A DNA stretch of 58,619 bases, taken from IMG/VR virus record IMGVR_UViG_3300010370_006650, positions 1-58,619 of that record. The stretch is one strand, 5' to 3'. Numbering within the stretch: the stretch's first letter is position 1; every line of letters starts with the position of its first letter. The notes below the pieces were generated by a model, which was given only the letters and a program-made list of their open reading frames with translations, made no database searches and was not told where the DNA came from. Origin of the DNA: a virus. Of this stretch, positions 38,975-53,417 are shown one piece after another. The position numbers and the translations under genes are program-made.

Positions 38975-40063
38975 ATGCAAAGAACGCTTTGTTTCGATGA
39001 CGTGTTGCTCGTTCCTCAGTACTCAGATATCGAGTCTAGATCGACAGTAGATTTGTCCGTCGCGGGATTTGATGATCCAGATGCAAGGTTAATGCCTGAA
39101 TTGCCTGTCTTGACTTGTCCGATCGTCGGTTCTCCGATGGACACGGTTATGAGTCCTGAATCTGCGATTATTTTATCAGAGATCGGTGGATTTGGAGTGT
39201 TTCACCGTTATTGTACGATTGACGATGCCAAGAAATCGTATCTTAAATTTGTCGAATTAGCAACAGATACTGACGCTCCCCAAAATGCTATGGTTGCAAT
39301 CGGCGCGACTGGAGATTACCTAGAACGCGCTCATGAATTATACGAAGCAGGTTGCAGGGCTTTTTGTATCGATGTTGCTCACGGCCATCATGCTTCGGTA
39401 AAAAGTGCATTAAAAGAAATGCGTTTGAAGTTTGGTGATAATGTGCACATTATGACAGGCAACGTTGCAACGCTTGAAGCGTTTAACGATCTTGCAGACT
39501 GGGGATCGAATTCAATTCGTGTCGGAGTAGGTGGAGGATCGATGTGTTCAACTCGTATTCGGACAGGCCATGGTATCCCTACGCTACAATCAGTTATGGA
39601 TTGTGCAAAATCCGATAGGGATGTTTTTATTGTTGCCGACGGAGGAATCCGTAATTCGGGCGATGCCGTTAAGGCTCTAGCTGCAGGAGCCGACATGCTG
39701 ATGTTGGGTTCAATCCTCGCAGGCCACGACGAGTGCCCTGGCGAATTAATCGATGATAAGGGATTGACTTATCGATCTTCCGGCGCTGCCTTGGGCGTCC
39801 CATTGTTTAAGAAATTTAGAGGTATGGCCTCTCGTGAGGCACAATTAAATTGGCGTGGCCGAGTTTCTGTCGTAGAAGGCGAATCTACGATGGTTCCATA
39901 TAAGGGTCGCATGCTGAATACGATCGCAGACCTTTTAGAAGGAATTAGATCTGGATTGTCTTACTCTGGCGCTCGCACGATTAGAGAACTTCGCGGTAAG
40001 GCTAAGTTCGTCACAGTGACGCCTCAAGGCGTTCAAGAAAATATACCACACGGTAAACGGTAA
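38975..40063 (+). CDS. IMP dehydrogenase / GMP reductase family protein
   Basis: The 362-residue protein has a TIM-barrel IMPDH/GMPR layout: FDDVLLVPQYSDI at the N-terminus, CPIVGSPMDTV near 48, the catalytic loop GGGSMCSTRIRTGHG with Cys191, VADGGIRNSGD near 210, and a KFRGMASREAQ segment near 280. There are no CBS domains, typical of GMP reductase but also of short IMPDHs, so the reaction (IMP to XMP, or GMP to IMP) cannot be settled by eye. It could steer purine pools for the phage. The gene has its own repeat-flanked promoter and ends one base from a convergent gene. Confidence 0.82.
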   Translation: MQRTLCFDDVLLVPQYSDIESRSTVDLSVAGFDDPDARLMPELPVLTCPIVGSPMDTVMSPESAIILSEIGGFGVFHRYCTIDDAKKSYLKFVELATDTDAPQNAMVAIGATGDYLERAHELYEAGCRAFCIDVAHGHHASVKSALKEMRLKFGDNVHIMTGNVATLEAFNDLADWGSNSIRVGVGGGSMCSTRIRTGHGIPTLQSVMDCAKSDRDVFIVADGGIRNSGDAVKALAAGADMLMLGSILAGHDECPGELIDDKGLTYRSSGAALGVPLFKKFRGMASREAQLNWRGRVSVVEGESTMVPYKGRMLNTIADLLEGIRSGLSYSGARTIRELRGKAKFVTVTPQGVQENIPHGKR

Positions 40064-40064
40064 A

Positions 40065-40526
40065 TTATTTCTTGGGCTTTATGCCTTTATTCTTCATGCT
40101 CCAAGCCACTGCCCACGGGTTATCGACGTCTGGTTCTTTCTTAAGAGCCTTAACTACATCTTCATAACCCTTGGGCGTCACCTCGTCGAGACTTGATTCG
40201 CCCATACCACATTCGCAAGTTGCTTCACTCATGCCGCACTCGCCGCACATACCAGCACCTTCTGAAAGTCCACAAGAGCAAGAAGCGTCAACCTTAGGAG
40301 GCATTTGACCGCACATCGGACAAGTATCGCTATCGTCACATGCACATTGACCGTCGATTGGCATTTCGCCGCATGCTGGACAAACGACAATGTCTTCTGA
40401 AACGTCTCTAACACCTACTGCGCCAACATCGGCGATGTCTTTTACGTCACCAACTTTTGTTCCAAAGACTGGGTCAATTGGCTCGCCGAACATTTCTAAT
40501 AGCGCTTTTTCTAACTTCTTGTTCAT
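40065..40526 (-). CDS. Cys-rich protein with DNPWAVAW domain (only minus-strand gene)
   Basis: The 153-residue protein has a Cys-rich middle (CPACG, CACDD, CPMCG, CSCG, CGECG, CECG, about residues 49-106), probably a series of small zinc ribbons, and a C-terminal GYEDVVKALKKEPDVDNPWAVAWSMKNKG that I recall from phage proteins of unknown function. It is the only gene on this strand. No long + strand frame competes here. It converges on the IMPDH gene with one base between stops and diverges from the gene at 40561. A TATATTTA on the same strand (40532-40539) is only 5 bases before its ATG, so the transcript could be leaderless. No SD is visible. Confidence 0.72.
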   Translation of the reverse strand: MNKKLEKALLEMFGEPIDPVFGTKVGDVKDIADVGAVGVRDVSEDIVVCPACGEMPIDGQCACDDSDTCPMCGQMPPKVDASCSCGLSEGAGMCGECGMSEATCECGMGESSLDEVTPKGYEDVVKALKKEPDVDNPWAVAWSMKNKGIKPKK

Positions 40527-40560: not shown

Positions 40561-40860
40561 ATGGCAGATTCTATGTTAATAGCGATTAGCGTGATGCTGT
40601 ATGGAACTGCTTTTGTTTTAGGGTTCCTTGTTGGGCGTTCGAATGCAAGTCCAATTGCTTCGAGTCTAGAAAAGGGATCGTTTTTAAAATCAACATCGAC
40701 AAAGGCGAAGACCGCAGTTCAAATCGACGAAAAACGATTTGTGACATCGATTTCGACAGATTCCTTGGAGAAAAAAGGAAAAGACTTGGGGACTCAAACT
40801 GTCGTAAACGACAGCGTCGATTCTGCAGTTTCAAAGCTGGCGATGCTCAAAAAAAAGTAG
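40561..40860 (+). CDS. Small membrane-anchored protein
   Basis: The 99-residue protein has an N-terminal membrane helix (MLIAISVMLYGTAFVLGFLVG, about residues 5-25), then a Ser/Thr/Lys-rich polar part (KSTSTKAKTAV) with no recognised domain. The gene starts within the divergent spacer with no SD before the ATG. It leads directly toward the actin-like ATPase, 23 bases downstream, and might be its membrane partner, but this is only context. Confidence 0.55.
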   Translation: MADSMLIAISVMLYGTAFVLGFLVGRSNASPIASSLEKGSFLKSTSTKAKTAVQIDEKRFVTSISTDSLEKKGKDLGTQTVVNDSVDSAVSKLAMLKKK

Positions 40861-40865
40861 TATAC

Positions 40866-40873
40866 TGTATTTA
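40866..40873 (+). promoter_or_regulatory. TGTATTTA, variant late-type motif
   Basis: TGTATTTA is one base off TATATTTA and lies 10 bases before the actin-like ATG; AGGAG overlaps its downstream end as SD. The distance is short. Confidence 0.3.
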
Positions 40874-40883
40874 GGAGATAAAC

Positions 40884-41888
40884 ATGGCTAAAGGATTAGA
40901 CGTCGGTACATCATTTATCGTTCTTGCTTCTGAGAGCGCAAAAGGCAAAGTTGTTTACAAGGATTTTCGCGATGCCTTTTACGTTATCAAACCTTCGACA
41001 CCTATCGCGACGAAGATGATTGAGAAGGGTTTGGCAGGAAAGACATTCGTTAAAGACTCCGACGGTTCTTTTATCATTCTGGGTAAGGATGCAATCGAGA
41101 AGGCAGTAGAAAGAAATGATTCGGCGAAGCGACCAATGTATAAGGGCGTTGTCTCATCGAAAGAAAAAGACGCCAGAAGAATTTTGACGTACATCCTTAA
41201 AGAGGTAGCTGGCACTCCTACGGAAGCTGGTGAAAAATTAGTCTTTTGCGTACCAGCTCAACCTGTTGACCAAGAAGACGAAGACTTTGACGTTGGATAT
41301 CACGAAGACGTTATCATCAAGTTATTGACCGAAGTTGGTTACGCTGCTCGCGCAATTAACGAAGCAGAAGCTCTATGCTATTCTGAATTAGAAAACGACG
41401 ACTATACTGGCGTTTGTCTGTCGTGGGGCGCAGGCATGGTCAACGTTTGCGTGATGCTTAACGGTGAGCCTGTTGTTAAGTTTTCTACTACAAAGTCAGG
41501 AGATTGGGTGGATCGCATGGCCGCGGTAGCGACTGGCGAATCTGATTCAATTGTACAAGCCGAAAAGGAAAACGGCGACTTCGTAGTTGGTGAACCAAAC
41601 GAAAATCAGGTTTTATCGGCCGTCGCAACCTATTACGACCGTCTTATCGATTACACGACGAAGCAACTCGCCTCTGCGATGGACGGTCACAAGTCAATTC
41701 CAAAGTTTAAGGATGCTTTGCCTGTCGTCGTGGCAGGTGGAACTTCCAAGGCCAAGGGTTTCGTGGATCTATTTGCCAAGAAACTTGAGGAAAATGGATT
41801 CCCTCTACCCGTCAAGGAAGTTCGTCATGCAGCTGATCCTCTGCACGCAGTCGCTCGTGGCTGTTTAATTGCGGCGCAGGTAATGTAA
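40884..41888 (+). CDS. Actin-like / Hsp70-superfamily ATPase
   Basis: The 334-residue protein has the actin/Hsp70 ATPase layout: phosphate-1 loop LDVGTSFIVLA at the N-terminus, connect-1-like CVPAQPVDQ near 126, phosphate-2 CLSWGAGMVNVCVM near 178, and adenosine motif VVAGGTSKAKGF near 285, ending in ARGCLIAAQ. It might form filaments like ParM, AlfA or phage Alp proteins, or act as a DnaK-like chaperone without a substrate domain. It is short for DnaK. A membrane protein gene precedes and a DNA methyltransferase gene follows. No ParR-like or other partner was recognised. Confidence 0.72.
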   Translation: MAKGLDVGTSFIVLASESAKGKVVYKDFRDAFYVIKPSTPIATKMIEKGLAGKTFVKDSDGSFIILGKDAIEKAVERNDSAKRPMYKGVVSSKEKDARRILTYILKEVAGTPTEAGEKLVFCVPAQPVDQEDEDFDVGYHEDVIIKLLTEVGYAARAINEAEALCYSELENDDYTGVCLSWGAGMVNVCVMLNGEPVVKFSTTKSGDWVDRMAAVATGESDSIVQAEKENGDFVVGEPNENQVLSAVATYYDRLIDYTTKQLASAMDGHKSIPKFKDALPVVVAGGTSKAKGFVDLFAKKLEENGFPLPVKEVRHAADPLHAVARGCLIAAQVM

Positions 41889-46287: not shown

Positions 46288-46776
46288 ATGAAAACAGGCG
46301 GTATTATCGTTGAGGGCGCTGAACAGCAAGGTAAGTCTACTTTCTGCGACAAATTGTCAAAACGACTCGGTGTAGAAATCATTCATATGCACAAAGGCTA
46401 TGGTTTCGTCGACGGCAAGTTCGATTACCTGACAGGTTATTTTTACGACATCGATCGCCGACCTGGTCCTTTCATCTACGATCGCTCGTATGTTTCCGAG
46501 CTGGCTTATGGCAAGGTTTTTCAGCGAAACAATATAACACCAGAAATTCTGCAAGGAATTGAATCTCGCTTTCAGGATCTAGGTTATTTTCTTGTCCTAC
46601 TGGAACTAAACTTGCCGTGGATCGATCGAGCAGAGACTGTCACTCAAGAGCAGAACGAAAAAGTCAAAAAGGCTTACCGAGAAGTTTTTCCGCAACTAAA
46701 GATCGACAAATTCCTGATAAATCCATCGGATGACGCCGTAGAATTTATCGCTAAACAATACGAGGCCAGAAGATGA
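46288..46776 (+). CDS. P-loop nucleotide kinase (dNMP or modified-nucleotide kinase)
   Basis: The 162-residue protein has a P-loop EGAEQQGKST (residues 9-18) and a DRSY motif in FIYDRSYVSELAYGK near 67, as in dNMP kinases. It is short and keeps the lid region small. A thymidylate kinase is already present at 33469. This one lies between dnaE and the ATP-grasp gene, in the modification run, so I suggest it phosphorylates a modified dNMP (like T4 gp1 for hydroxymethyl-dCMP) or a base hydroxymethyl group, as phage hydroxymethyluracil kinases do. It begins one base after the dnaE stop with GGAGG and ends in an ATGA overlap. Confidence 0.72.
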   Translation: MKTGGIIVEGAEQQGKSTFCDKLSKRLGVEIIHMHKGYGFVDGKFDYLTGYFYDIDRRPGPFIYDRSYVSELAYGKVFQRNNITPEILQGIESRFQDLGYFLVLLELNLPWIDRAETVTQEQNEKVKKAYREVFPQLKIDKFLINPSDDAVEFIAKQYEARR

Positions 46777-48032
46777 AAATTTTGCTATTGACCTATGGTA
46801 ACGAGAGTTCTATCGAGATGATTCGCAGCATCGCGGAGCTGAATACTCACGAAGTATACGGTTGCCACTATGATACGATCAACGCAGGCCTCGCATACCT
46901 GAACAAAAATTACATTGTCGAATGCCCTAATCCTTTCAAGACAGCGCCCCAATTCTTGAAGTGGTTGGACAACTTCGTCATCGACGCAGATATCGACAAG
47001 GTTTTTGTTACAAATTGCAAGATGCTTAAATTCTTGTACGACAACTGGAACGATGTTGGTTGTCACGACAAGCTAGCGATCCCTGGCAAGGATAATTTGG
47101 CTCCATGTTTATTCAAAAATAAGTTATACGAACTATTACCGGATATTTCTCCGAGAGTTTTTAAGAGTCATGAAGAAGCACCAACCGACGTCGATCTCTT
47201 CGCCAAGCCTTGTTATAGTTCCTCTGCCGAAGGCGCTCGAAAACTAAAGAACAATGTTGCTTCTTGGCAAAGCGTTACGACGGAAGATGTCGTGACCGAA
47301 TACCTACCAGGAGAAGAGTTCACGGTAGATTGTGTCTCTACTCCAGACGGCGACGTAGTAGACTGGAATGTGAGGCTTCGAGCTAGAATTAGGGATGGCA
47401 TTACTTCGTACGGTCGCTCGGCTCCCGAATATTGGGAGTTGATCGGTGAGCACGTTAAGACGATCGCTAAGAAGTTGAAACTACCCTACTTTTGGTTCGC
47501 TCAATTTAAGTTTGATTCTAATGGCGTTCCTAGGTTGCTCGAGGTTAACTGTCGAATTAGCGGTAGTTTTTGCATTACAAAGGCCTCGCGAAAGGATTAC
47601 GTCAAATTCGCAATGGCGGATTTCGCAGATGGAATTATCGTGAAGGGTCCTGCAGGTGGCCGTCATGCGATCGCTCGCCACATGAATGTCTTGCCAGTCG
47701 CAAAGAAAACTTGGGTGTGGGACATCGACGGCACAATCTGCACAGAAACTGGTGGTAACTATCACTTGTGCGAACCATTTACGGATGCTATTAAGAAGCT
47801 AAACATGTTGCACGATAGAGGCGACGAGATCGTTTTACATACCGCCCGTGGTATGAAGAGGTTCAACAACGATGTTTCGGCAGTTTACCAAAATCTTTAT
47901 GAACTAACCAAAAAACAATTAGAGGCGTGGGGTGTAAGATACGATAAGCTCATTATGGGCAAACCTTATGGTACGTTAGTCGACGCTGACGCTATTACAG
48001 TTGACGATCTACAATTAGAGGAGACAAAATGA
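46773..48032 (+). CDS. ATP-grasp ligase fused to HAD-family phosphatase
   Basis: The 419-residue protein has two domains. Residues about 100-290 are ATP-grasp: LFAKPCYSSSAEG near 142, VTEYLPGEEFTVD near 174, and the metal site E257-N259-R261 in LLEVNCRISGS. Residues about 313-415 are HAD-like: DIDGT with Asp317 and Asp319, LHTARG near 357, and GKPYG followed by VDADAITVDD near 395-410. ATP-grasp enzymes join an acyl group to an amine or thiol through an acyl phosphate; HAD enzymes remove phosphates. It overlaps both neighbours by ATGA (kinase before, carbamoyltransferase after). Substrates are unknown. A modified sugar or base route is inferred. Confidence 0.8.
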   Translation: MKILLLTYGNESSIEMIRSIAELNTHEVYGCHYDTINAGLAYLNKNYIVECPNPFKTAPQFLKWLDNFVIDADIDKVFVTNCKMLKFLYDNWNDVGCHDKLAIPGKDNLAPCLFKNKLYELLPDISPRVFKSHEEAPTDVDLFAKPCYSSSAEGARKLKNNVASWQSVTTEDVVTEYLPGEEFTVDCVSTPDGDVVDWNVRLRARIRDGITSYGRSAPEYWELIGEHVKTIAKKLKLPYFWFAQFKFDSNGVPRLLEVNCRISGSFCITKASRKDYVKFAMADFADGIIVKGPAGGRHAIARHMNVLPVAKKTWVWDIDGTICTETGGNYHLCEPFTDAIKKLNMLHDRGDEIVLHTARGMKRFNNDVSAVYQNLYELTKKQLEAWGVRYDKLIMGKPYGTLVDADAITVDDLQLEETK

Positions 48033-49798
48033 AAACCACAACGGCATTGATGCTTACGCTTGGACACAATTCTTCTGCAGTTTATTTCGATGGAGAAAAA
48101 GCCGTCGGGTACGAAGAAGAGAGACTAAACAGAGTTAAGTCTTCAAGCGCTTATCCGCGTTTGTCTCTTGAGGAGATCGAAAAGAACGTAAAGATTCAAC
48201 CCGGAAGTTACGTTTTTGTATCACACTGGTTTGATCGTTTAAACTTCGACGAAACCTCTAGCAAGTATTTTGATAAAGAGCACTTCGATTCTTTCGTCGC
48301 TAAGTACTCTTTGCGTAAAGTCATTTTGAGCGAAGGATTCACTCATCACGATGCCCACGCATGGTCAGTCGTTTCGTTCCTGAGAAATAAGCGGCAACCA
48401 CGCCACGATGCGCTACTTTCGCCGGGTGATAAGTTCCACGTGATTGCTGCAGATGGTTATGGAACCTTCCAGGAAGTCTTTAGCGTTTATGAATTCGACG
48501 CTAACGATAATTCTTCTAGACTGAAGTTAGTCGATAGGTTCCATGGCTACAACTATTCTTTGGGACTTATGTATCAATATGCTACTTCGTATTGCGGCAT
48601 GAAGGAGAACCAGGACGAGTATAAGTTCTTGGGATACGAAACGCATGTTACGAATCTTTTATCTCCAAGCTCGATTGATCTTTTGAGAGATATCGCTCGC
48701 CAAAAATCAACGAACATGTTCAATTCGATGATCTCTACGAAGGATTGTAGATCATCTACCTGGCAAGACCCAAACAACCTCGTCAACTTGAAGTCGCTGT
48801 CGGAAACAAAAGAATACTGGACAAAACACTTCGACGAAGTATTGTCCGCCGTATCACCAGGAATTTCAGGTCGCAACCTGAGAATCGTCATCGGTCACTA
48901 TATTCAAGAATTGATCGAGGGCGTTGTCACAAAGATGATCGACCATTATTCTATTAAACACTTAGCTTTGGCAGGTGGAATTTTTTATAACGTTAAGTTA
49001 AACAACAAGGCTTTACATAAAGTGCCTGGATTGTTCTCGGTCGTGCCACTGGCTGGCGATCAAGGTTGCGGCGTCGGTATGTACGAAGCTCATGTTGGTG
49101 GATTCGAATGGGGCGATTTAAAATGGGGGCCGCGACCACAGTTCGCTACGTGGCAATCGAAGGTCTCGACTGAAGACTTATCAAGGTATGGTAATCATAT
49201 TCAATATTACTCGGCAGCAGACAGAGAGCGCGCCGTCGAAGATACGGTCAGCTCGCTCGAAGCCAACGAATTAGTCAACGTAGTAAAGTGCAAAATGGAG
49301 TTTGGTCCAAGAGCGTTGTGCAGCACGACCACGCTGGCTATTCCAACTACATCCAATGTCGAGATTATTAACGACATTAACGAACGCGATACCGTTATGC
49401 CGATGGCGCCAGTTATGTTGAGTTCCGCCGTCGATAACTTCTTCGATACCAGCTATAGCAATCGTGTAATTGGTTCGGATAGATTCATGATCTTAACGTA
49501 CGACTATGTGTCTCCAGATCTTGAAAACTACGGAGGTATCGCTCACAAGTATCCTGACTACGACGTGTGGTCTGGTCGCCCACAGCTAATCGATTCAGAC
49601 GATGCCTTTATGACATCCGTACTTTCTAAGCTAAGCCATAAGTCTAAGGCGCTGATCAATACTAGTTTCAACGCACACGGTCGACCAATCGTTTACGCGT
49701 TAGATAGCGTATTGGATAGTTTTAAGTTTGAATTCGATAAGGCTATGGAGCTTGGTCATAAGCTTCCCCTTCTCTATCTTTGCGACTTTGATGGTTGA
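48029..49798 (+). CDS. Carbamoyltransferase (NodU/CmcH/TobZ family)
   Basis: The 589-residue protein is full length for the family. It has LGHNSSA near 12, EEERLNR near 30, THHDAHAWS near 108, DGYGTFQEV near 148, LALAGGIFYNVKLN near 313, GDQGCGVGMYEAH near 344, EFGPRALCSTTTLAIP near 425, N-IN-R-T-MPMAPVML near 445, and ALINTSFNAHGRPIV near 545. Such enzymes use carbamoyl phosphate and ATP to make a carbamoyl adenylate and transfer carbamoyl to a hydroxyl. The acceptor could be a hydroxymethylated base or a sugar attached to it. It is tightly coupled (ATGA) to the ATP-grasp gene. Confidence 0.9.
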   Translation: MKTTTALMLTLGHNSSAVYFDGEKAVGYEEERLNRVKSSSAYPRLSLEEIEKNVKIQPGSYVFVSHWFDRLNFDETSSKYFDKEHFDSFVAKYSLRKVILSEGFTHHDAHAWSVVSFLRNKRQPRHDALLSPGDKFHVIAADGYGTFQEVFSVYEFDANDNSSRLKLVDRFHGYNYSLGLMYQYATSYCGMKENQDEYKFLGYETHVTNLLSPSSIDLLRDIARQKSTNMFNSMISTKDCRSSTWQDPNNLVNLKSLSETKEYWTKHFDEVLSAVSPGISGRNLRIVIGHYIQELIEGVVTKMIDHYSIKHLALAGGIFYNVKLNNKALHKVPGLFSVVPLAGDQGCGVGMYEAHVGGFEWGDLKWGPRPQFATWQSKVSTEDLSRYGNHIQYYSAADRERAVEDTVSSLEANELVNVVKCKMEFGPRALCSTTTLAIPTTSNVEIINDINERDTVMPMAPVMLSSAVDNFFDTSYSNRVIGSDRFMILTYDYVSPDLENYGGIAHKYPDYDVWSGRPQLIDSDDAFMTSVLSKLSHKSKALINTSFNAHGRPIVYALDSVLDSFKFEFDKAMELGHKLPLLYLCDFDG

Positions 49799-49800
49799 AC

Positions 49801-50466
49801 ATGATTATCGTAAAACAGCCTGAATTTGAGAACGACGACTATCTGTTTAGGATTGAAGCGCATAAATTACCAAAAGCCGGAGAAGCTCTGTCTTTTCTTA
49901 AGAAGATCGATCCGTTTGCAGCGGATTACTATTGGTCGAAGAGACAGGCCTTTCTGACGCAAGATACCAATCCAAGCGTTTTTTCTAAATTTGTCCAGGA
50001 TAAACCTAGCTTGAGGAGCTTGTCCGACTTAGACGCGTTGGACTCTACGATCTATACTGTCGCTTGTGAAAGAGAGAATAATCTTGGTTATCGAGATATT
50101 CTTATGAATTTAAAGCGACACCTGTTGCAAAAACCTGAGACTCGTCGTTGCATGTTAAGATTCGCCAATAGCTATGAAAGATACCATATCAGCGAGTCTG
50201 CAAGACCCCTAGATGTGACTTGTCTAAGTTTAATTCATTATCTAAAGCAAGGACCTAAACTAGTTTTTAGGGCGTCAGATGTAAGAAACGAATTGTTGGT
50301 CGATATCTTGACTATCAACGAATTTTTTATCGATCCTGTTTATAATTCTAATTTCAAAAATTACCAGATGTCAGTATATTCTTCTACCGCACAGTGTGTT
50401 TCAAGCTGGAATAACTTTGTAAATTTATTGCAGCGTTCGTATAGCGTCGGAGGAGAAAATAGATGA
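49801..50466 (+). CDS. Truncated thymidylate-synthase-fold protein
   Basis: The 221-residue protein aligns by eye with the ThyA homologue at 52425. TRRCMLRF matches SRRAVIHI (phosphate-binding Arg pair), LDVTCLSLIHYL matches LDVPCTLSLQFFL (nucleophile Cys141), FRASDVRNELLVD matches MRSSDVILGLAYD (Asp168 at the pyrimidine-recognition position), and MSVYSSTAQC matches LSASLHVYERH. The N-terminal third looks unlike ThyA and the C-terminal folate region is missing. It may be a second base-modifying enzyme or a regulatory paralogue. Start is ATG 49801 (the TTG at 49795 overlaps the previous stop). It overlaps the epimerase start by 4 bases. Confidence 0.62.
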   Translation: MIIVKQPEFENDDYLFRIEAHKLPKAGEALSFLKKIDPFAADYYWSKRQAFLTQDTNPSVFSKFVQDKPSLRSLSDLDALDSTIYTVACERENNLGYRDILMNLKRHLLQKPETRRCMLRFANSYERYHISESARPLDVTCLSLIHYLKQGPKLVFRASDVRNELLVDILTINEFFIDPVYNSNFKNYQMSVYSSTAQCVSSWNNFVNLLQRSYSVGGENR

Positions 50467-51452
50467 AATGTTTGATAACGGGCATCGCAGGATTATTGGG
50501 CGCAAACTTTTCGAGACATCTACTAGAAAAAAATTACAAAGTAGTCGGAATTGACGATTTAAGTGGAGGATACGAAGAGTTTGTTCCACCCTCGGCAATT
50601 TTTTATAAAGTCGATTTAACTCGCGCAGATGCAGTCAATCAAATCTTCGAAAGAGAAAGCCCAGATTGCGTTTTCCATTTCGCTGCTTACGCCGCAGAAG
50701 GATTGAGTCCTTTCGTCAGAAATTACAACTACACCAATAACGTTATCGCTTCTGCGAATGTAATCAATGCTGCTATTAACAACAACATCAAGAAAGTCGT
50801 CTATACTTCTTCGATGGCGGTTTATGGTACAGGTAATCCACCATTCGTAGAAGAACAATTGCCGATTCCAGAAGATCCCTATGGCATCGCGAAGTATGCT
50901 GTAGAAATGGACTTTAAGTTGGCGCGCGAAATGTTCGGCCTGCGATACAGTATTGTTCGACCACATAACGTTGTTGGTGTTTACCAAAACATATGGGATC
51001 GCTATCGTAACGTAATCGGGATATGGATTAGACAGGCTATTGCAGGCGAACCACTTACGATATATGGAGACGGCACACAAGTCCGCGCCTTTTCCGACAT
51101 CAAATTCTACATGGAACCATTTGAGAAATTGATGACCGATCACGATGGTGAAATCTTTAACATTGGCGCCGACAAGTATGTTACGATAAACGAGGCCGCC
51201 GACGTGGTCCTAGACGTTGCTAAAGAATTTGGTATTAACGCGACTAAGGTTCATTTAGAAAAGAGAAATGAGGTTCATGCTGCTTATTGCGACCATGCGA
51301 AGGCTCGTAATCTTTTGAACTTTAACGACGATACTAACCTAAGAGAAACAGTAAACACGATGTTCGGTTGGGCGCTAACTCAACCTGTTCGCGACACGAA
51401 GCGTATGAAGTACGAGATAGAAAAAAACATTTATTCTTTTTGGAAAAAATGA
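50463..51452 (+). CDS. NAD-dependent sugar-nucleotide epimerase/dehydratase 1
   Basis: The 329-residue protein is an extended short-chain dehydrogenase: GIAGLLG near 7 binds NAD, TSSMAVYG near 117 and YGIAK near 138 give the catalytic Ser and Tyr-Lys, and RPHNVVGV near 163 fits epimerases. It would act on a UDP- or dTDP-sugar. Only 14 bases separate it from a second epimerase, and it overlaps the TS-like gene. Two such enzymes in a nucleotide operon suggest production of an unusual sugar donor, as in phages with arabinosylated hydroxymethylcytosine, though no glycosyltransferase is in the window. Confidence 0.85.
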   Translation: MKCLITGIAGLLGANFSRHLLEKNYKVVGIDDLSGGYEEFVPPSAIFYKVDLTRADAVNQIFERESPDCVFHFAAYAAEGLSPFVRNYNYTNNVIASANVINAAINNNIKKVVYTSSMAVYGTGNPPFVEEQLPIPEDPYGIAKYAVEMDFKLAREMFGLRYSIVRPHNVVGVYQNIWDRYRNVIGIWIRQAIAGEPLTIYGDGTQVRAFSDIKFYMEPFEKLMTDHDGEIFNIGADKYVTINEAADVVLDVAKEFGINATKVHLEKRNEVHAAYCDHAKARNLLNFNDDTNLRETVNTMFGWALTQPVRDTKRMKYEIEKNIYSFWKK

Positions 51453-51465
51453 GGTATAAGTTAAC

Positions 51466-52428
51466 ATGAAAATGAAACGCGTATTAGTTACGGGTGGCGC
51501 TGGATTTATTGGTAGCAATTTAGTAAAAGCTCTCGTCGATAGGGGCGCAGAAGTCGACGTCGTCGACAATATGTCGAATGGACATAAAGAGTTTGTGCCA
51601 GCTGGTTGTAACTTGTTCGTTGCTGATTTTGCGTCGGAAGATATTCTGTCGAAGATCAAGGCAAAAACATACGATGTAGTTTTTCATTTGGCTGCAATTC
51701 CTCGTGTTAGTTACTCGGTTGAACATCCTGTTGAAACGCACGAGACGAATGTGAATGCTACATTGAAGTTGATCGATACATGTAGAAACAACATTAGACG
51801 ATTTGTCTTCGCTTCATCATCGTCAGTATACGGTGGCGCCGATGCTTTGCCAACGCCAGTTTCTTCTCCTAAAAACCCAAAGTCGCCATACGCTTTGCAG
51901 AAATCTATCATAGAAGACTATTTGTCTCTATATCACCTGCTGTACGGTCTCGACTCAGTAAGCCTTAGATTTTTTAACGTTTTTGGACCTAATCAGTTAG
52001 GTGATTCTCCGTACGCTACTGCAGTGTCAGCCTGGTTGACTGCTATTCACCATGGAAGATCGATGCGATCTGATGGAGATGGTTCACAATCGCGCGATAT
52101 GTGTTATGTCGATAACGTCGTAGACGCTTGCATAAGAAGCGCTGAGGCTGATGCTGAGCTAAGAGGAGTTGCGTTGAATGTTGCTTGCGGCGATCGTAAC
52201 ACGAACAAATCAATACTAGAATTTCTTTTGTCTAAGTATCCAAACGCCAAGTACCATGATGCTCCATGGAGACCAGGCGACGTGATGCACACGCAGGCAG
52301 ACATTAGCAAAACTCATGAACTTCTTGGATACGTTCCTTTGGTTCGTTTCTGGGAAGGATTAGAACGAACGATGAAATGGTACGAGGAAAACTGGTCTTT
52401 AATCAGCTCATTGAGTCTATCTAAATGA
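51466..52428 (+). CDS. NAD-dependent sugar-nucleotide epimerase 2 (GalE-like)
   Basis: The 320-residue protein has GGAGFIGSN near 11, HLAAIPRV near 69, SSSSVYGG near 117 and YALQK near 139, followed by RFFNVFGPNQ near 168 and GDGSQSRDMCYVDNV near 205, very typical of UDP-glucose 4-epimerase and related enzymes. It is more like cellular GalE than the upstream protein, which looks more diverged. It overlaps the dCMP hydroxymethylase-like gene by ATGA. The sugar is not known. Confidence 0.9.
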   Translation: MKMKRVLVTGGAGFIGSNLVKALVDRGAEVDVVDNMSNGHKEFVPAGCNLFVADFASEDILSKIKAKTYDVVFHLAAIPRVSYSVEHPVETHETNVNATLKLIDTCRNNIRRFVFASSSSVYGGADALPTPVSSPKNPKSPYALQKSIIEDYLSLYHLLYGLDSVSLRFFNVFGPNQLGDSPYATAVSAWLTAIHHGRSMRSDGDGSQSRDMCYVDNVVDACIRSAEADAELRGVALNVACGDRNTNKSILEFLLSKYPNAKYHDAPWRPGDVMHTQADISKTHELLGYVPLVRFWEGLERTMKWYEENWSLISSLSLSK

Positions 52429-53417
52429 AAGCATATCATAATTTTACCGAAGCGTACGTCGATATCATTCGTGATGTCTATACGTCGCCAGAGTTTACTT
52501 CATCGCCCCGCGGCATGAAAGTAAAAGAAATTTTAGGTTATCAATTTAAGATTCTAAATCCAAGAAATCGAATCCCTTATGTTAAGGGAAGAGACTTTTC
52601 AATTCACTATATGGTTGCTGAATTACTTTGGTATTTAAGTGGCAACGATTCGACTAATTGGATTTCGAATTATTCGACATTCTGGTCTAAGATTTCAGAC
52701 GACGGCGAAACAGCAAATAGCGCTTATGGTGCTAGAATTTTTAAGTCACACGATCGTATCGCAAAAACTGTCGACGAAAATTGGACGCAATGGAATTACG
52801 TGGTCGAAGAACTAAAGAAAGACCCAGACTCTCGTCGCGCCGTAATTCACATACGTTCTCCCCAAGATTCGATATTGGCGCAACTCGATGTTCCTTGCAC
52901 TTTGTCTCTTCAATTCTTTTTGCGTGGAGATAAGGTTTACATGGTTACCTCGATGCGATCGTCAGATGTTATTCTTGGATTGGCGTACGACGTACCTGCT
53001 TTTACGCTCTTTCAAGAACTTCTCGCTTTACAGCTAACTAAGGAACTAGGTCGACCCATTGGCTTAGGCGACTATACTCATCTCAGCGCTTCTCTACACG
53101 TTTATGAGAGGCACTTTAAAATGGTCGAAAAAATATTGGATGAAGATACTCGGCGAGATTATCGAGACGTTTTAGAGATGCCGCAGATGCCCGACAATCC
53201 ACCCCTTGGGAGGCTAATGTCGCTCGAAAACGATATTAGGAATCTCAATGACGAACAAAAACTAGTAGATTTCGAAATTGGGTTTGAAGATTACTGGAAG
53301 GATTGGGCAAAAGTGCTGGTTTCTCATCGCTTACAAAAGCTAGGTAATGTTGGGCTTGCCAATCAGTCGCTTCTTTCCACGAACTTTGAAGGTTATAAAT
53401 ATTTTGTAAAAGAGTGA
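52425..53417 (+). CDS. ThyA-family enzyme, predicted dCMP hydroxymethylase
   Basis: The 330-residue protein has the thymidylate synthase fold: SRR phosphate-binding pair near 137, nucleophile Cys158 in DVPC, RSSDV near 178, and the substrate segment LGLAYD. Asp189 lies 31 residues after the Cys, the position of Asn177 in E. coli ThyA (Cys146 plus 31) and of Asp179 in T4 dCMP hydroxymethylase gp42 (Cys148 plus 31). Asp there favours cytosine over uracil. With thyX present, it most likely makes 5-hydroxymethyl-dCMP (or 5-methyl-dCMP). It is followed by thymidine kinase and dCMP deaminase genes in the same operon. Confidence 0.8.
   Translation: MKAYHNFTEAYVDIIRDVYTSPEFTSSPRGMKVKEILGYQFKILNPRNRIPYVKGRDFSIHYMVAELLWYLSGNDSTNWISNYSTFWSKISDDGETANSAYGARIFKSHDRIAKTVDENWTQWNYVVEELKKDPDSRRAVIHIRSPQDSILAQLDVPCTLSLQFFLRGDKVYMVTSMRSSDVILGLAYDVPAFTLFQELLALQLTKELGRPIGLGDYTHLSASLHVYERHFKMVEKILDEDTRRDYRDVLEMPQMPDNPPLGRLMSLENDIRNLNDEQKLVDFEIGFEDYWKDWAKVLVSHRLQKLGNVGLANQSLLSTNFEGYKYFVKE

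Follow-up and report, generated by a model that had tools for sequence, protein, structure and literature searches.

A volactin-family actin gene paired with a membrane-protein gene in large phages: a proposed cytoskeletal cassette

Most of what is known about phage cytoskeletons concerns PhuZ, the tubulin of nucleus-forming phages, and a few actin-like proteins such as AlpC. The AlpC actin of prophage CGP3 is believed to carry phage DNA to the membrane by means of a DNA-binding adaptor, AlpA, whose co-transcribed gene comes first in the operon (PMC4446434). Volactin of Haloferax volcanii (HVO_2015, PF25216) forms dynamic filaments with tips that touch the membrane, and its binding factors are unknown (PMC10869688). 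In the crenactin-arcadin-2 pair, the C-terminal helix of the partner lies in a hydrophobic groove of the actin fold, a groove that in ParM is occupied by ParR (PMC5173319). We analysed IMG/VR record IMGVR_UViG_3300010370_006650 over its whole 58,619 nucleotides (nt), hereafter the window, in which a volactin-family ATPase gene follows the gene for a small membrane protein. The window, a linear fragment, comes from a tailed phage; its phage gene set includes tape-measure, UvsX, DnaB, ribonucleotide reductase, thymidylate synthase and PolIII-alpha genes.

We propose, with a probability of about 0.6, that the two genes are a phage cytoskeletal cassette producing membrane-tethered volactin filaments. 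Both open reading frames (ORFs) lie where a preliminary description of this DNA had placed them, with 23 nt between them and an AGGAG Shine-Dalgarno sequence 6 nt 5' of the ATPase ATG:

40561..40860, plus strand: membrane partner ORF, 99 amino acids (aa), single span, proposed volactin anchor
40873..40877, plus strand: AGGAG ribosome-binding site of the ATPase gene, read from the sequence
40884..41888, plus strand: volactin-family actin-like ATPase, 334 aa, with the fold of a relative nearest MamK, BeeR and MreB

Over its full length the ATPase belongs to the volactin family. The Pfam scan matched it to PF25216 with 227.7 bits (E 3.3e-67, curated cut-off 35), and residues 1-331 aligned on profile positions 1-321 with the ATP-binding motifs intact. 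Identity to haloarchaeal volactins was about 37% across 99% of the protein. The phosphate and adenosine motifs of the actin/Hsp70 group, which the preliminary description had reported, were present and conserved across 12 diverse relatives (consensus GLDVGT for phosphate-1, SxGxGMxN for phosphate-2 and GGTxxxxGF for adenosine). The gene showed strong purifying selection against a 93% identical relative (nonsynonymous divergence, dN, 0.05; synonymous divergence, dS, >2). The motifs were placed as follows:

40890..40913, plus strand: phosphate-1 motif KGLDVGTS, with D6, G8 and T9 invariant
41418..41444, plus strand: phosphate-2 motif LSWGAGMVN, with S180, G182, G184, M185 and N187 invariant
41727..41762, plus strand: adenosine motif VVAGGTSKAKGF, with G285, G286, T287 and G292 invariant

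The preliminary description posed a choice between ParM-like and DnaK-like, and the ATPase is neither. No ParM-type family matched at E up to 1 in Pfam or up to 10 in NCBIfam. DnaK/Hsp70 was rejected, with no Hsp70 family in the Pfam scan and a 334-aa actin fold that runs to the C-terminus with no substrate-binding domain. Scores against the salactin, MreB and MamK profiles were all sub-threshold, with 22.3 bits for MreB (cut-off 27) and 29.8 for MamK (cut-off 400), and BeeR gave 32 (cut-off 530). Structure prediction, which had been suggested for separating ParM-like from DnaK-like proteins, was run on a 92% identical relative and favoured neither option. The model had a predicted local distance difference test score (pLDDT) >90 in most of the ATPase, and its nearest solved fold was the MamK filament (Z 27.3, root-mean-square deviation (rmsd) 3.0, 293 residues), followed by BeeR (Z 26.9), MreB (25.6) and F-actin (about 25). 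A profile of diverse ATPase relatives run against solved structures returned MamK, BeeR and MreB only, at E up to 0.01. However, these nearest folds were not accompanied by sequence scores above the curated cut-offs, and no magnetosome or cell-wall genes were seen near the phage gene. PHROGs gave no convincing match for the ATPase or its partner, PADLOC gave none, and BFVD gave distant Hsp70-like or unnamed viral matches only.

PilM, FtsA and EutJ were also among the fold matches, and PilM is known to bind PilN. These matches, and a membrane partner with a short binding tail as in a PilM/PilN-like pair, would fit a non-filament scaffold, in which the actin fold serves as a monomeric or dimeric switch recruited by the tail of a bitopic membrane protein, as in PilM-PilN or FtsA. 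We consider this unlikely: the filament formers were closer in fold (TMt 0.74 and rmsd 4.3 for MamK, 0.51 and 10.8 for PilM), and Haloferax volactin polymerises in cells (PMC10869688).

The preceding gene encodes a membrane protein with one hydrophobic span, as described earlier, and in the loci of clade A, the viral clade of the window's ATPase, this protein is the obligate partner of volactin. We ran a partner profile on the distinct clade-A loci that had 330 bp or more of upstream sequence, 120 in all, and found the partner in every one (directly adjacent upstream in 115, at 300-840 nt in 5, missing in 0), with gaps of 2-4 nt to volactin the commonest. The reverse search, run from one partner sequence, gave 29 loci; volactin was immediately downstream in 28, and the 29th was cut by the contig end. 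All other neighbours changed, with none in more than 10 of 36 loci. Since the pairing was kept while the other neighbours were not, the two genes form a self-contained cassette, and the 120/120 pairing bears out the earlier suggestion of a membrane partner that could anchor the ATPase.

Neighbouring genes need not interact, and the docking described below is read from models, so the pairing might reflect operon conservation only, with an unrelated job for the membrane protein. This is very unlikely given a pairing that persists in both searches while every other neighbour changes, a partner whose tail is its most conserved part, and the same tail motif upstream of archaeal volactin. A phage volactin might also take over the host cell, by co-polymerising with or displacing host MreB, or by remodelling cell shape or envelope, instead of carrying phage cargo. 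The MreB-like fold, a membrane anchor that would position the protein at the workplace of MreB, and the effect of volactin on Haloferax cell shape (PMC10869688) all speak for this. However, the obligate dedicated partner suggests a self-contained system and the sequence is far from MreB by profile score, and we regard host takeover as distinctly unlikely.

Three elements were recognised in the partner:

40573..40635, plus strand: transmembrane helix, residues 5-25, with GFLVG (GxxxG-type) at residues 21-25, supported by relatives and by a helix at 3-28 in the model of locus L008
40717..40758, plus strand: tail motif 1, VQIDEKRFVTSIST, residues 53-66, whose I-[DN] core was kept by 89/91 relatives; order in the model was only partial
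40792..40854, plus strand: tail motif 2, strand 78-83 and C-terminal helix 86-98, VDSAVSKLAMLKK, the proposed volactin-binding element from models and motif match

The span had a Kyte-Doolittle value of 2.33 over 19 residues. Among the relatives of the partner, 88/91 had the hydrophobic span, 76/91 the G-aromatic/aliphatic-xx-[GAP] motif and 80/91 the charge bias; with more positive charge C-terminal of the span, the tail is expected in the cytoplasm. Conservation was strongest in the tail. The phage partner had no Pfam match, and neither DUF7139 nor a DNA-binding domain was found in it.

DUF7139 is the domain of the multi-span membrane protein that usually precedes haloarchaeal volactin. Of the 39 haloarchaeal genomes with volactin in an evenly drawn sample, 30 had it immediately 5' of the volactin gene, and it also lies just upstream of volactin in Archaeoglobaceae. 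The phage protein shares with Haloferax volactin the full-length family and an upstream membrane protein gene, but it is viral, its partner has about 100 aa, one span and no DUF7139, and the known cell-shape role belongs to the Haloferax protein. An upstream DUF7139, tried as a family feature, was absent from the phage, where a membrane protein with a related tail takes that place; since even haloarchaea have the feature commonly but not universally, it does not decide volactin membership.

The tails of the two kinds of partner share an ungapped 20-residue motif, TQVTVNDDVGTSVSKLAQLK in phage locus L008 and KQTTSSSTVDDQTAKLKELR in Haloterrigena locus L252. Comparison of tail profiles between phage clade A and haloarchaea beat 60/60 column shuffles. 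A motif trained on phage partners only was significant in 37 of 43 haloarchaeal partners, which are related and so not 43 independent cases, and in 25 of 100 control proteins (Fisher p 9e-12); the control rate exceeds 5% as the scores of whole proteins were judged against shuffled tails, and the comparison with controls is the valid one. The best match in some haloarchaea was a neighbouring motif copy (GVDxQVxGLKxLK). About ten haloarchaeal genomes also had a second volactin-like stretch within an open frame of 767-1258 aa (e.g. G024:C1:1043228-1044172), perhaps a paralogue carrying additional domains, perhaps no more than an open frame in GC-rich DNA.

Partner and volactin are in-frame in some loci, and AlphaFold was given the locus sequence read through the intervening stop as one chain. 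In the phage model, the tail block of strand 78-83 and helix 86-98 had pLDDT 87-94 and residues 33-51 were disordered. The archaeal model had a strand at 248-252 and a helix at 256-280, with pLDDT 78-87 over residues 251-280, and tail residues 201-245 were mostly at pLDDT 31-41. This strand-helix order would fit docking of the tail on volactin.

The filament behaviour of Haloferax volactin, together with the binding of partner helices by crenactin and ParM, led us to propose polymerisation with a tail tether. The ATPase most likely polymerises with ATP into filaments like those of MamK, MreB and BeeR. The partner would span the host inner membrane and extend its tail into the cytoplasm, where the C-terminal strand-helix would bind the actin and tether the filaments to the membrane, perhaps by one end (the tips). 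The arrangement appears to be the same in haloarchaea, with DUF7139 in place of the phage membrane domain and a related tail motif. The likeness to crenactin-arcadin-2 and ParM-ParR, C-terminal helix binding, is here proposed by analogy only; arcadin-2 differs in depolymerising filaments, and ParR is a plasmid segregation adaptor.

During infection, the filaments would serve to arrange phage DNA, sites of replication or virions with respect to the membrane, and this cargo is the weakest step of the proposal. An alternative reading is a DNA segregation or partition machine of the ParM/AlpC type, with a filament that moves phage DNA. Efficient replication of CGP3 depends on AlpC filaments and on the AlpA adaptor (PMC4446434), volactin dynamics have been likened to ParM (PMC10869688), and phage replication genes are nearby in the window. 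AlpC with AlpA is likewise a phage actin behind an adaptor gene. However, AlpA binds DNA and the partner here is a membrane protein, and the window protein matches volactin, not a plasmid-type actin profile. Beside the actin gene we found no parC-like repeat array, only short two-copy repeats, and the neighbouring genes were not conserved. With neither a DNA-binding adaptor nor a parC-like array found, DNA placement is only one possible job, a rival to the membrane-tethered cassette, and we judge a segregation machine improbable. PhuZ of nucleus-forming jumbo phages resembles the proposed system as a large-phage filament that could organise the infected cell, but PhuZ is a tubulin and not an actin.

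Several observations weigh against tethered filaments as proposed. Docking was read from local confidence only, on chains joined by reading through a stop, and the other copy of the helix motif in the archaeal tail (residues 201-240) was not confidently placed. DUF7139 was not adjacent to volactin in 9 of the 39 haloarchaeal genomes, and it was present in 58 of 59 genomes, more widely than volactin. No DNA-binding part that would link the system to phage DNA was found at the locus. In clade B, the upstream protein is a different, small soluble one of about 76 aa, whose end is conserved as WAIPDF..KI.FGK in 74 of 80 loci (L083, L086-L165); it is non-membrane, and its tail has no match to the clade A motif. 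Similarity of the clade B tail was tested by profile comparison and by motif, and rejected; its conserved end is possibly another volactin-binding tail. Clade C tails beat 60/60 shuffles in the profile comparison but only 2/9 reached significance by motif score, and this similarity is suggestive only.

Scans of IMG/VR found 371 relatives of the window protein, 108 of the second type (clade B) and 30 of the third (clade C); the three lists may overlap, and the list of 371 is chiefly clade A among its best 80. Volactin contigs reached 533 kb in IMG/VR, and two relatives were found in uncultured-phage records of 485 and 595 kb. In the tree, each of the three viral clades formed one branch (support 99, 100 and 96) and haloarchaea with Archaeoglobaceae formed another (99); the tree is unrooted with several long branches, which leaves the direction and number of transfers unfixed. 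All 9 large phage records tested carried one volactin copy each, above the PF25216 cut-off. Among 22 large volactin-phage records, which may be incomplete, none showed a tubulin-family gene (13 of 14 control genomes were positive).

Some volactin loci had further features. Intein-like insertions split clade-C volactin genes at two distinct conserved sites, after SFGSGMTN (phosphate-2) in L190 (from 3998, plus strand) and before CGDWID in L194 (from 4004, plus strand) and L195. Inteins tend toward conserved active-site positions of important genes. An ORF in L048 and L049, lying upstream of the gene pair some 300-630 bp before volactin, joined an intein-like C-terminus (ENNHNFFCNGSLIHN) to a dUTPase-like end. 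Volactins filed under bacterial metagenome-assembled genomes, L202 (Fermentibacteria) and L247 (Neomarinimicrobiota), lay beside phage-like genes, which in L202 were, by eye, ORFs resembling ClpP, M15 peptidase and dNMP kinase; both may be phage contigs binned with bacteria.

The divergent regulatory spacer of the preliminary description is not a special feature. It is a gap of 34 nt between the partner ORF and a gene on the minus strand (40065-40526), a search of the gap gave no promoter-like site, and of 36 related loci just 5 had that gene again. Around the pair, signals of promoters and terminators were no more frequent than by chance. An IMP dehydrogenase/GMP reductase gene lies at 38975-40063, with a relative near volactin in 10 of 36 loci. 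Further along, a cluster at 46288-53417 encodes a kinase-like protein, an ATP-grasp protein with a phosphoheptose-isomerase/polynucleotide-kinase-like end, a Nol-like carbamoyltransferase and two nucleotide-sugar epimerases, and is possibly a sugar-modification pathway in the phage.

Phage actins and volactin are already known as kinds. Volactin in large phages, its obligate membrane partner and the shared tail motif were not found in the literature searched, where DUF7139 itself is nowhere mentioned, most subscription journals being outside that search. A huge-phage survey and jumbo-phage papers from 2020, 2021 and 2026 discussed tubulin or no cytoskeleton, and no such actin. Tentatively, and with the odds somewhat against it, we suggest an ancient actin-plus-membrane-tether module that archaea and large phages share, with one volactin-binding tail fitted to unrelated membrane domains; it would give phages a skeleton alternative to the PhuZ spindle, and DUF7139 would be the missing tip-holding factor in haloarchaea. 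That hundreds of large-phage contigs encode an archaeal-type actin and a dedicated membrane partner for it points to a skeleton made by the virus and tethered to the membrane, and it makes DUF7139 a concrete candidate for the factor that holds volactin filament tips at the Haloferax membrane.
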